From the NCBI RefSeq assembly GCF_014652575.1, contig NZ_BMZB01000005.1, forward strand, positions 62,001 through 126,000: a DNA stretch of 64,000 nucleotides, given 5' to 3'. Below the pieces are notes generated by a model. It did not search any database. It had not been told where the DNA came from and saw only the letters and a program-made list of their open reading frames with translations. Every line of letters starts with the position of its first letter. The stretch's first letter is position 1. Shown here piece after piece: positions 25,937 through 32,190 of the stretch. A program made the translations under genes and the position numbers. This DNA comes from Asticcacaulis endophyticus. Its GTDB lineage: Bacteria > Pseudomonadota > Alphaproteobacteria > Caulobacterales > Caulobacteraceae.

Positions 25937-26032
25937 GATCCGGCCTTTTTCAGGCGCTATCCGGCCTTGATAGCGCCGCAAAGACCTCTACATAATTGGA
26001 TGACTATTCCTTTTGTGAGCCTGACCCAACCC

Positions 26033-27487
26033 ATGACGACATCCTTGCGCAAAGCTGCCTCCATTATCGCCCTGACTATGGCCGGTTTGATGAGCGCCTG
26101 CTCCGGCCAGACCGAACCGCAGGATAATTACGAGGGTTCGGGGTTTCATCAGCAGCCGCTCGGCACACCTAACCGTAAAGTACCCGACAGCGCCATCGGC
26201 ATGAAGTCGTCCTTTGCACCGGTCGTGCGCGATACGGCGCCGGCGGTCGTCAATGTCTACGCCAAGCGCGTCTCCCGCCGCCAGGTCGATCCATTCTGGC
26301 AGATGTTCGGCGGCGTCAATCCGCGTCCGCAGGTCGAGCAGTCCCTGGGCTCCGGCGTGATCGTGCGCGGGGACGGCGTGGTGGTGACCAACAACCACGT
26401 CGTTCAGGGCGGGCAGGAATTCATGGTCGTGCTCAATGACCGGCGTGAATTTCCGGCCAAGCTGCTGCTGGCCGATGAACGCACCGATCTGGCTGTGCTT
26501 CAGCTTGAGACCAACGGCGAAAAGTTCACCACGCTTAATCTGGATGACGGGCGCGACCTGGAGGTTGGTGATCTGGTGCTGGCGATCGGTAACCCGTTTG
26601 GGGTCGGCCAGACGGTGACCAACGGCATTATCTCGGCCCTTGACCGCACCGATGTCGGGCCGGGCGAGGGGGCGTTCATTCAAACCGATGCCGCGATTAA
26701 CCCCGGCAATTCCGGCGGGGCGTTAGTCGATATGGACGGCGACCTGATCGGCATCAACAGCTTTATCCTGTCACGCTCAGGCTCTTCGGCGGGGGTTGGG
26801 TTTGCCATCCCTTCGGCTATGGTGCGCCGGGTAGTCGATACGGCACTCGGCGGTAAGTCCACGCTGGTGCGGCCGTGGCTGGGGGCCAAGGGCGATGCGG
26901 TAACCTCAGACATTGCCCGTTCCATGAACCTTCCGCGCCCCGAAGGGGTGCTGGTCAGCGATATCTATAAGGGCAGCCCCGCCGATCAGGCGGGCTTGCG
27001 CACCGGCGATGTCATCACGACCGTCGATGGCCAGCCGGTCAATGATGCCCGCGCCATCGCCTATCGGATGAGTGTGCGCAACCCCGGTGAGACGGCGCAA
27101 CTGGGCATTATCCGTGACGGTAAGCCGCAATCGGTCAAGGTCAAGGTGCAACCGCCCATCGCCACACCGGCCAAGGATGAGCGCCTGATCAAGGCCAACA
27201 CGCCACTGCTGGGGGCCAAGGTTGTCAATATGTCGCCCGCCGTGGCCGAAGAAGCGGGCATTGATATCTTTGCCGCCCCGCGCGGGGTGCTGGTGTACGG
27301 TATTGAATCGAACCGCGCCTATGCGGCCCGCGCCGGTTTCCGCCCCGGTGATATCATCAAGGATGTCAACGGCACGCCGATTACGTCGGCGGCGCAGTTA
27401 GAGCAGATTCTGAGCACCCGTCCGGCGTCATGGAAAATCAGCATAGTTCGCCAAGGGCAGACGATGACCGCGCAGTTTAGGGCGTAA
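26033..27487 (+). CDS. HtrA/Deg-family serine protease, lipoprotein
   Basis: 484 residues from the ATG at 26033, chosen because it gives a compact lipoprotein signal (MTTSLRKAAS..., lipobox LMSAC, Cys23). In-frame ATG/TTG starts at 26000 and 25967 would add a poorly conserved leader. The trypsin-like triad is visible as His122 (VVTNNHVVQGG), Asp152 (RTDLAVLQ) and Ser227 (NPGNSGGAL). Two PDZ domains follow (about 285-375 and 395-480). It is a Do-like envelope quality-control protease or chaperone; the lipid anchor is less usual. Its stop lies 2 bp before the DUF559 element. Confidence 0.92.
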   Translation: MTTSLRKAASIIALTMAGLMSACSGQTEPQDNYEGSGFHQQPLGTPNRKVPDSAIGMKSSFAPVVRDTAPAVVNVYAKRVSRRQVDPFWQMFGGVNPRPQVEQSLGSGVIVRGDGVVVTNNHVVQGGQEFMVVLNDRREFPAKLLLADERTDLAVLQLETNGEKFTTLNLDDGRDLEVGDLVLAIGNPFGVGQTVTNGIISALDRTDVGPGEGAFIQTDAAINPGNSGGALVDMDGDLIGINSFILSRSGSSAGVGFAIPSAMVRRVVDTALGGKSTLVRPWLGAKGDAVTSDIARSMNLPRPEGVLVSDIYKGSPADQAGLRTGDVITTVDGQPVNDARAIAYRMSVRNPGETAQLGIIRDGKPQSVKVKVQPPIATPAKDERLIKANTPLLGAKVVNMSPAVAEEAGIDIFAAPRGVLVYGIESNRAYAARAGFRPGDIIKDVNGTPITSAAQLEQILSTRPASWKISIVRQGQTMTAQFRA

Positions 27488-27489
27488 AC

Positions 27490-27557
27490 TATACCTCCCT
27501 GAAATCTCTGATTTTGGGGAGGGGGACCGCGACCGTTTACGGTCGGGGTGGTGGGGT
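27490..27557. repeat. Left arm of the DUF559 cassette inverted repeat
   Basis: The outer 14 bp (TATACCTCCCTGAA, 27490-27503) and the inner 42 bp (27516-27557) are exact inverted copies of 28015-28028 and 27961-28002. The 12 bases between them differ from the right arm. The arm folds into two hairpins: CCTCCCTGAAAT...ATTTTGGGGAGG and CGACCGT-TT-ACGGTCG. Confidence 0.93.
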
Positions 27558-27926
27558 GTCTTTTCTAAATTGAAGCCGCTCAAGCGCTTTAAGTCTGATG
27601 CCATCTGCGACGGTATCTACGTTTCTAAACACCTCCGCGGCAGGTACGCGATAGGTTTCAATGCCCTTTTCAGCAAACCATTTGTCGCGAATGAGGTCAC
27701 GCTCATGATGACCGGCTAAACCATGCTCATGACCATCAACTTCGATGGCAAGCTTGGCTTTGGGACAGTAAAAATCAAGGATGTACGGCCCTAGCGGATG
27801 CTGCCGACGAAAGGTTAGTGTATCGTGCCGCTCTTTCAAACGCTGCCATAATAAATATTCGGGCACTGTTAACGACTTGCGAAACTTACGGGCCAGAGCC
27901 GTTTTTGGTTTAGGGGCGTTGTCCAT
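27537..27926 (-). CDS. DUF559-family endonuclease-like protein
   Basis: 129 residues. The DUF559/Vsr-like fold is recognisable: RKSLTVPEYLLWQRLKER with a conserved Glu at 23, RRQHPLGPYILDFYCPKAKLAIEVDG with Asp51, Glu62 and Asp64 in PD-(D/E)xK positions, then HERDLIRDKWFAEKGIETYRV. DUF559 proteins are small predicted nucleases, often found alone in alphaproteobacteria; their substrate is not established. The 3' end of the gene runs into the left inverted-repeat arm (its last ~7 codons, ending PPPRP, are encoded by the repeat), so gene and repeat are one unit. It is inserted between htrA and corB. Confidence 0.85.
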   Translation of the reverse strand: MDNAPKPKTALARKFRKSLTVPEYLLWQRLKERHDTLTFRRQHPLGPYILDFYCPKAKLAIEVDGHEHGLAGHHERDLIRDKWFAEKGIETYRVPAAEVFRNVDTVADGIRLKALERLQFRKDTPPPRP

Positions 27927-27960
27927 AGTTTGAACTTAACCGACGGGCCACAGTTAAGAA

Positions 27961-28028
27961 ACCCCACCACCCCGACCGTAAACGGTCGCGGTCCCCCTCC
28001 CCGAACGCAAGACGTTCAGGGAGGTATA
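27961..28028. repeat. Right arm of the DUF559 cassette inverted repeat
   Basis: The inner 42 bp (27961-28002) and outer 14 bp (28015-28028) are exact inverted copies of the left arm. The intervening 12 bases (28003-28014) differ but still complete a 12-bp hairpin (CCTCCCTGAACG-TCTTG-CGTTCGGGGAGG on the minus strand). It ends immediately before the corB stop codon. Confidence 0.93.
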
Positions 28029-29306
28029 TTAGTCTTCAATCACGATCGGGGTGATTTTCAGCGCGGTGATCTGATTACGCTGGCGGCGCAGAATCTGGAA
28101 CTTGCGGTCAAAAAAGATGAAGGTCTGACCGGGTTGAGGGATAGTACGGGCCTCATAGATCACAAGGCCAGCAATCGTAACCGCATCATCATCGGGCAAA
28201 TCCCAGTCCATAAAGCGGTTCAGGTCGCGGATAGGTACATCACCATCAACAATAAGCGACCCATCAGCCTGCTTACGGATGCCGGTCTGGGCGGTGTCGT
28301 GCTCATCTTCGATATCACCGACGATTTCCTCCAGTATGTCCTCCAGCGTCACCATGCCCTGCAGTGCGCCATATTCATCGACCACCAGCGCAAAGTGCTG
28401 CTTTTGTTTTAGAAACGCGTTCAACTGGCTTTTGAGGTTGGTGGTGTCGGGGATGAACCACGGCTCACGGGTGATGGCGTCGATATCGAGGCTTAAGACA
28501 TCGCCTCTGGCCTTGGTGATGGCGGCGAACAGGTCACGGGCATGGAGGACGCCGACAATGTTTTCCTGATTATCGCGGTAGAGCGGGATGCGGGTATGGC
28601 CGATTTTGAGCGCCTCATCGATGATGCGCTCAATGCCAAGATCCGCGTCAATCATGAATATCTGCTTGCGATGAACCATGATCTGACTGACATCCAGCTC
28701 AGACAGATCCAGCACGCCGCGGAACATATTGCGGTCGCGCTTTTCGACTGAGCCTTCGTCGTGGTGATATTCGATGGCCCCGCGAATTTCCTGATGGGCG
28801 GCCAGAACGTCGGTTTCCATCGACATGTTGACGCCGAACAATTTCAGGGTTTTGCGCACAAACCACTGCACGGCCTGCACGACGGGACCGAAGATATAGA
28901 CGGCCCACAAAACCATCCGCGACATACCGCGCGCCACATCATCGGGCTTGGTGATCGCCAGGGTCTTGGGCAGGACTTCCCCGAACACCAGAATAAGTAC
29001 GGTCATGACGCCGGTGGAGATGGCAATGCCCATAGCACCAGGGAACATGGCCGCCAGAACCGAGGTCGTTAGCGCCGAAGCCCCAATATTGATCAGGTTA
29101 TTGCCCAGCAATATGGCGCCGATCATCTTTTCCTGATCGGTCAGCAGGCGGTTGACCCGTTTGGCCGCCTTATCGCCGTCGCGCTCAAGCTGGTGCATCC
29201 GCCCGCGTGAGGCGGCCGTCATTGAGGTTTCCCCCGCTGAGAACAATGCGGAGACAAACAATAATCCGACCAAAATCGGTGCGAGGACGAGCAGGGTGGT
29301 GATCAT
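28029..29306 (-). CDS. CNNM/CorB-type transporter (HlyC/CorC family)
   Basis: 425 residues. An N-terminal DUF21 membrane domain has about four helices (residues ~5-170). A CBS-domain pair follows (about 205-330, with [10 protein letters not shown] and [25 protein letters not shown]). The C-terminal CorC_HlyC domain (about 345-425) ends [15 protein letters not shown]. Family members take part in Mg/Co efflux or homeostasis. The start overlaps the aroB stop (ATGA), so it is the last gene of an aroK-aroB-corB operon. The stop codon abuts the DUF559 cassette. Confidence 0.9.
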
Positions 29307-32045: not shown

Positions 32046-32190
32046 TCTCCTCCCTACGCAGTGGGGACCGGGCAGCCGGAGCGGGTGGCGGCAAGCGTAG
32101 CGAGGCTGACGGAGGGGTAGCTTGTTGTACGCCGTAGAAATCCCCTCCGCCTCGTAAACTCGGCACCTCCCCATGGAATGGGGAGGAGGG
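32046..32190. repeat. REP/MITE-like element with GGGGAGG hairpins
   Basis: About 145 bp between xerD and accA, bounded by CTCCTCCC-type hairpins: TCTCCTCCCTACGCAGTGGGG at the left (32046 onward) and CCTCCCCATGGAATGGGGAGG at the right (32166-32187). Internally GGAGGGG (32111) can pair with CCCCTCC (32142). No gene is encoded. The ends resemble the hairpin plus GGGGACCG or GGGGAGG structure of the DUF559 cassette arms. Confidence 0.7.

Follow-up and report, generated by a model that had tools for sequence, protein, structure and literature searches.

A DUF559 gene framed by two-hairpin arms

In the genome of Asticcacaulis endophyticus, a lone gene for a DUF559 nuclease-like protein lies between long inverted repeats in the gap that separates an htrA-like from a corC-like gene, and this arrangement raises the question of whether the cassette is a mobile unit and, if so, which enzyme spreads it. 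We refer to the whole 64,000-nucleotide stretch of DNA analysed as the window; window coordinates equal those of contig C5 minus 62000, and this genome is labelled G000. The left arm (27490-27562, + strand) and the right arm (27956-28028, - strand) are 73 nt each, are 88% complementary and have 393 nt between them. The 14-nt (TATACCTCCCTGAA) and 42-nt (GGGGAGG...GGTGGGGT) exact inverted matches reported in the original prediction are both present within these arms. Its placement of the cassette precisely between the stop codons of htrA and corB is borne out by the ORF ends: the HtrA-like protease gene (25967-27487, + strand) ends at 27487 and the CorC/CNNM-CBS gene (28029-29306, - strand) ends at 28029, and the cassette fills the gap, with both of these immediate neighbours of the DUF559 gene lying outside the element. 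The DUF559 gene itself (27537-27926, - strand, 129 aa) has its last codons and stop codon inside the left arm, as had also been described, and is the sole gene recognized between the arms, where no DDE transposase was found. A chance inverted repeat was rejected, since the arm pair scores 109 compared with 18-22 in eight windows of the same size at the same locus, and since dozens of partial matches to the arms are scattered through the genome (74 at E values up to 10, many of them weak). Searching positions 27300-28200 against Rfam gave no RNA family match at E values up to 1.

Two hairpins make up the unit that forms each arm: hp1 (CCTCCC..loop..GGGGAGG) lies outermost and is followed by a linker, hp2 and a tail (GGWGGGG) that points toward the gene. 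The left unit (27494-27556, + strand; pattern match C5:89494-89556) consists of hp1 (27494-27522, + strand, read from the sequence), the linker GGGGACC, hp2 and the tail GGTGGTGGGG, and its counterpart in the right arm occupies 27962-28024 on the - strand (pattern match C5:89962-90024). The linker is TGGC or TGTC elsewhere. Many units of a second kind, type II, have hp2 between CCGTC and GCCACC, which is not so for the type I units of this cassette, and a GTAG-type tag is absent from both of its arms as read from the sequence. Approx. 4 kb from the cassette there is a solitary member of this palindrome family (32142-32186, - strand; pattern match C5:94142-94186).

The arms also occur away from this locus. 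Counting overlaps, the unit pattern has 120 matches in this genome (58+62), compared with 20+21 for the reversed pattern, and it occurs in all 25 genomes of the genus with 13-276 matches each, again with overlaps counted, the reversed pattern giving 0-91 matches per genome and always fewer than the unit pattern. Of 115 DUF559 loci, 83 have one or both arms matched by a strict pattern for this particular unit; both arms match in just 36 because arm types differ. Among the 119 arms found by the strict pattern, the outer stem of hp2 has a median of 6 bp compared with 3 bp after shuffling of the letters; 98 have an hp2 stem of at least 5 bp, these stems using 36 different 5-bp sequences, and the middle of hp1 is represented by 94 different sequences. 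The structure of the unit is kept while its letters change. An alignment of 54 arms with MAFFT and RNAalifold recovered four pairs, none with changes on both sides, which reflects the fact that hp2 sequences are not aligned by structure.

Inverted arms at other DUF559 loci

Each of the eight DUF559 genes in this genome is flanked on both sides by inverted palindromic arms. Several arm types are represented, those at L028, L030 and L034 differing in type from the arms of the cassette. Seven of the eight loci beat 100 shuffles, L032 being judged by eye, and six reach a score of 35 under the stricter scoring used for the genus census. That census started from 113 DUF559 matches in 25 genomes, from which 108 rows were taken after five short fragments had been dropped; 107 were scorable and 83 of these had an inverted-arm score of at least 35. 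The 24 loci below this value comprise 13 that show the motif by eye and 11 that do not. In addition, we scored a set of 80 loci from named genomes of the Caulobacterales, Sphingomonadales and Rhizobiales and from one MAG labelled Planctomycetota; these are the best 80 of a pattern search rather than a random sample, and eight of them are also in the genus census. Arms scoring at least 35 were found at 62 of the 75 scorable loci and in none of 266 control windows of the same geometry at the same loci, the controls often lying inside genes and not being matched for intergenic position.

Over a broader range, DUF559 occurs in 108 of 299 Pseudomonadota genomes, this one included. From these genomes a sample of 30 loci (29 scorable) gave 14 that reach a score of 40 and 15 below it, as against 2 of 116 control windows, mostly with another arm type (CCCTCTCCC..GGGAGAGGG). 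A collection of plasmid records held 38 with a DUF559 match, and strong arms were found in six of the nine examined, Cyanobacteria and Deinococcus included: Sphingobium (66), Sphingomonas (44), Pseudanabaena (128), Deinococcus (115), Azospirillum (52) and S. meliloti (208), with local controls reaching 28. Synechocystis (27) is doubtful, and the E. coli YcjD-like (20) and Methylobacterium (22) records are without arms. The association implied by the original prediction, in which DUF559 genes go with inverted repeats, thus held for most homologues examined and failed for a minority, namely the E. coli YcjD-like and Methylobacterium genes and the 11 of the 107 loci in the genus at which inspection by eye also revealed no motif. 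Two of the plasmid genes are part of operon-like gene clusters: the one on the Sphingomonas plasmid (L333) stands between genes for transhydrogenase subunits, and the one on the Deinococcus plasmid (L336) between paaD and paaZ. DUF559 genes also occur in tandem, at L077/L091 (G018:C52), where the two are 88% identical over approx. 650 bp, and at L381/L085 (G010:C12).

Units without a gene

Copies of the arms without a gene, for which the original prediction had proposed a search, do exist and take the form of inverted dimers. We examined 97 units, out of 187 pattern matches, in genome G001 and found 33 neighbouring pairs within 500 bp, of which 31 are inverted with their tails facing. The spacers of these tail-facing pairs measure 43-47 nt in 23 cases and 18-19 nt in five, the remaining three being 37, 51 and 396 nt, and the pair with the 396-nt spacer is the gene-bearing element. 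In 13 dimers of the long class the spacer ends are GTTCTTGCTT...AAGCAAGATA and variants thereof, closely resembling the arm-adjacent sequence of the gene-bearing element (GTTCTTACTT... and ...AAGCAAGAAA). The 95 listed units of the A. endophyticus genome form 17 tail-facing pairs, four that face through hp1 and one on the same strand; the tail-facing spacers are 16-24 nt in ten pairs and 50-81 nt in four, and the other three pairs bear the gene. Gene-free inverted dimers of fixed spacing are REPIN-like. Two genomes of the genus, G005 and G024, have no DUF559 match yet contain 38 and 115 matches to the unit pattern respectively, and across the 25 genomes the number of DUF559 genes shows no link with the number of units (Spearman 0.14, p 0.50). 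These two genomes and the missing copy-number link speak against a strict requirement for DUF559, so that many units may be relics or may need another enzyme.

Nuclease lineage and arm type

We typed arms by their tails as GGTGGGG, GGAGGGG or GAGAGGG, using the left arm first and otherwise the right, and mapped the types on to a tree of the nucleases. Over the 105 typed rows (a further 38, out of 143 in all, had no arm type and were excluded, and in two cases a pair of rows represents one and the same protein) the arm type changes four times, compared with a mean of 31.4 and a minimum of 27 in 300 shuffles. Within the genus, 32 typed rows require two changes (mean 15.4 and minimum 11 in 300 shuffles), which is the least possible given that three arm types coexist there. 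Many of the genus rows typed GAGAGGG may derive from a single inherited locus, and the two-change result therefore rests on few independent events. Where both arms could be typed, the types agree in 56 of 57 elements, and in genomes with at least four elements scoring 35 or more, 57 of 72 left arms have their best partner within the genome in the right arm of their own element. On these comparisons, DUF559 is the cognate partner of a spreading family of palindromes.

A deaminase ORF that we take to be RibD-like continues the reading frame of DUF559 in many of these GAGAGGG rows. At L066, L067, L068, L070, L071, L080 and L081 the DUF559 gene is in frame with this ORF, and in several cases the linker between the two is of the PHPNPLPxxGERG kind and is encoded by the palindrome. 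It seems that, in this genus, the palindromes joined the nuclease to a riboflavin gene.

The predicted nuclease and a search for Y1 transposases

The cassette protein matches PF04480 in a profile search with an E value of 4e-24 (85 bits against a cut-off of 20.6). Its AlphaFold2 model has a mean pLDDT of 89.9, and a Foldseek search with this model gave 3hrl, a putative endonuclease-like protein, as the nearest structure, followed by the homing endonuclease I-Bth0305I (3r3p, rank 2, E value 5e-4), with PvuRts1I and AbaSI among the next matches; a solved Vsr was not among the structural matches listed. Profile searches against structures gave E values of 1.2e-26 for 3hrl, 3.8e-4 for 3r3p and 1.7e-6 for PvuRts1I. 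The residues Glu23, Asp51, Glu62, Asp64, His68 and Asp77 do not vary among the 23 genus proteins compared. The protein is predicted to have a Vsr-like fold with EDxHD residues and to be related in fold to I-Bth0305I. One Caulobacter protein with DUF559, VsrA, has been linked to cytosine methylation or a cytosine methylase, to the SOS response and to DNA damage (PMC12907096). A role as a defence gene was considered and set aside, PADLOC matching just a partial DpdF and a model for modification-dependent restriction.

We also searched for the enzyme known from comparable palindromes elsewhere, the Y1 (RAYT-type) transposase PF01797, and found none in this genome at E values up to 0.001. Y1 genes were found in four of the 25 genomes of the genus, the other 21 giving no match. 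None of the nine Y1 loci holds a unit, and all seven that could be scored are without arms. A RAYT as the mover is unsupported in this genome, with no Y1 match here and no units beside the Y1 loci of the genus.

Occupied and vacant sites

Whole elements recur in unrelated contexts, and homology between copies stops at or just inside the element ends. L030 of this genome and L083 of G013 share 501 bp at 81%, from one end of the element to the other and no further, and L032 and L035, both of this genome, share 485 bp at 79%, inside the element and no further. G000, G020 and G007 carry the 471-bp element at L031, which is cleanly missing from G013 and G017; its site measures 40-79 nt in eight more distant loci of the genus.

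At the htrA-corC junction, a comparison that the original prediction had called for, the cassette is missing in all four relatives in which both sides were found. In G007 (L040) the junction holds nothing but an hp1-like hairpin next to corC and an unrelated ORF, whereas G013 (L038) and G020 (L037) have a truncated right arm and the same unrelated ORF, which is approx. 165-180 aa long in the three genomes. G017 (L039) has a left unit with the same hp2, a gene named by eye as CorA-like and a lone hairpin, and the 3' end of htrA is duplicated there. In G007 and G017 a hairpin resembling the left hp1 of the cassette, with no unit behind it, adjoins the corC stop codon. On these data the junction is a hot spot for gene gain.

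We compared six dimer sites with four relatives by eye, covering 22 of the 24 site-relative pairs. The same dimer was present in seven comparisons and different units at the same place in ten, once of the GAGAGGG type; a lone hairpin was seen in one and no units in four. Vacant sites fall into two kinds. A hairpin is present at this junction, at L029 and at L406 (lone hairpins in G007 and G017 both at the junction and at L029, and in G017 at L406), and any palindrome is missing at L031 in G013 and G017, at L410 in G020 and at L412 in G020, G007 and G013. At the dimer site L406, the corresponding stretch of G020 (G020:C1:2048845-2049259) has both 140-nt flanks 100% identical, compared with approx. 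89-97% for other flanks, which suggests that this stretch was recently exchanged.

Target-site duplications, for which the original prediction had suggested looking, were searched for and not detected. Among 76 elements with an arm score of at least 50 there was no target duplication of fixed length: direct repeats of 2 nt were found at the ends of 27 elements (shuffled mean 30.4), of 3 nt at five (9.2) and of 4 nt at none (2.6), with the ends taken from alignments, so that they can be off, and with a few loci being duplicates. Classical transposition with target duplication was rejected on this basis.

Discussion

The idea that the cassette is a compact mobile unit working by a RAYT-like logic is supported by this analysis, most comparisons turning out as a mobile unit predicts. 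On balance we favour the view that the cassette represents the gene-bearing form of a REP-like family of mobile palindromes, for which the stand-alone DUF559 protein would be the dedicated enzyme or mobilizer. The comparisons in its support are the architecture, the matching of nuclease and arm, the recurrence of one element in several contexts, the dimers of fixed spacing and the lack of a Y1 (RAYT-type) match in this genome. That DUF559 would be the mover we infer by analogy with RAYTs and from its being the gene between the arms. The substrate would be two inverted two-hairpin units and the enzyme the DUF559 protein encoded between them, and the gene-free inverted dimers would be the non-autonomous members, standing to DUF559 as REPINs stand to RAYTs. 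The likeness to the REPIN-RAYT system lies in a small enzyme gene between inverted REPs, in dispersed, non-autonomous inverted REP doublets of constrained spacing, both of which are found here, and in the several enzyme-REP pairs per genome. However, the enzyme of that system is an IS200-like Y1 HUH tyrosine transposase, whereas the protein here is a predicted Vsr-like nuclease of the PD-(D/E)XK kind; moreover, the unit here has two hairpins, the cassette is without a GTAG tag and no Y1 gene was found in the genome.

Other known systems share part of this description. EDxHD homing endonucleases such as I-Bth0305I, and Vsr, are alike in predicted fold and in conserved acidic and histidine residues, an equivalence read from the residues and not from superposed structures. 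Homing enzymes sit in introns or beside one allelic target. Unlike them, the DUF559 gene is framed by palindromes that are present in many copies at unlinked sites. DDE insertion sequences and MITEs are marked by a target duplication of fixed length and a DDE transposase, neither of which was found here. The CGTC-tagged REPs of the Alphaproteobacteria, as described in PMC3733652 (Di Nocera et al. 2013), are likewise palindromes that form inverted dimers, often beside stop codons, and their CGTC tag and CCA tail come close, by description, to the CCGTC-hp2-GCCACC of many type II units; however, they are single hairpins of 20-40 bp with a stem that begins AT, whereas the units here are longer and carry hp1. 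The same paper reports a dedicated transposase to be missing for these REPs. The CIR elements of Caulobacter, as described in PMC2229807, are intergenic alphaproteobacterial elements of approx. 110 bp with two inverted-repeat arms and a linker; they are defined by a GANTC site, their likeness to the units here is by description alone, and their mobility mechanism is said to need more information. Searches of the literature, excluding preprints and most subscription journals, found no paper joining DUF559 with inverted repeats or 'endonuclease domain-containing protein' with repetitive extragenic palindromic, and no link between DUF559 and repeats appears in the available sections of PMC3733652, PMC12907096, PMC8266576, PMC10969869, PMC2229807 and PMC3116915.

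As to how the units would spread, we tentatively propose a break-and-copy step, based on predicted cleavage, to which we give somewhat less than an even chance. The nuclease, which the original prediction had suggested may act on the hairpin ends, would cut or nick the DNA at a unit or at a hairpin like it, in many cases next to a stop codon. The host's repair machinery would then copy in another unit, a dimer or a gene-bearing element, the copying partners being paired through their common GGGGAGG/CCTCCC stems; REP content could in this way enter palindromes without a target duplication. The proposal fits because target duplications are lacking, unit types are exchanged at fixed sites, some vacant sites hold hairpins and the enzyme is predicted to be kin to a homing endonuclease. 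Counting against it, several vacant sites are without a palindrome, and the target therefore need not always be a unit already in place. Where different units occupy one site, they could also have inserted independently, few gaps being tolerated, and the lone hairpins could be scars left by deletion.

A second explanation is that of an excision-and-insertion transposon in which DUF559 frees the element at its hairpin ends, in linear or single-stranded form, and reinserts it, so that the element would resemble a very small IS with long inverted ends and without a DDE or Y1 enzyme. The inverted ends, homology limited to the element in different contexts, sites of presence and absence, some of the vacant forms being without a palindrome, and dimers that resemble internally deleted elements would all agree with such a transposon. 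We nevertheless consider it unlikely, since no target duplication was detected at ends taken from alignments and the same site is occupied by different units in relatives; we also know of no strand-transfer activity in a lone PD-(D/E)XK-type nuclease.

Two further explanations leave DUF559 without a part in the movement. As a Vsr-like repair nuclease, it would be a repair gene around which unrelated REPs gather in the same gene gaps, as its predicted fold, its conserved active-site residues and the link of Caulobacter VsrA with a cytosine methylase and the SOS response (PMC12907096) might suggest; however, most loci have arms in mirror order on both sides, with close to zero in controls, though these were not matched for intergenic position, the arm type follows the nuclease tree, and element-limited homology occurs in unrelated contexts, all of which makes this account very improbable. 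Alternatively, the palindromes would be moved by a RAYT/Y1 or another transposase with DUF559 as cargo or passenger, and RAYTs do move, or are thought to move, similar REP doublets elsewhere (PMC3116915 and PMC8266576). With no Y1 match in this genome or in 21 of the 25 of the genus in a search that covered the Y1 family, with Y1 loci free of units and with DUF559 repeatedly the gene inside the arms, we regard a separate transposase as the least probable account of all.

Small palindromes count among the repeats commonly found in bacterial genomes, and RAYTs account for part of them. Under the break-and-copy proposal it is possible, if less than probable, that a large class of mobile DNA is driven only by a nuclease of the Vsr/EDxHD type, with hairpins being broken and repair copying units, dimers or the gene. 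If this is true, the units would be a dispersed, self-renewing homing target, and many REP families without a known transposase, in the Alphaproteobacteria and in other phyla, would be explained. Well over a hundred natural enzyme-arm pairs are seen here, which makes the question directly testable. The cognate pairing offers DUF559 a function and suggests a transposon-like life without a transposase, in what is possibly a minimal form of mobile DNA, the enzyme that spreads it having perhaps been overlooked.
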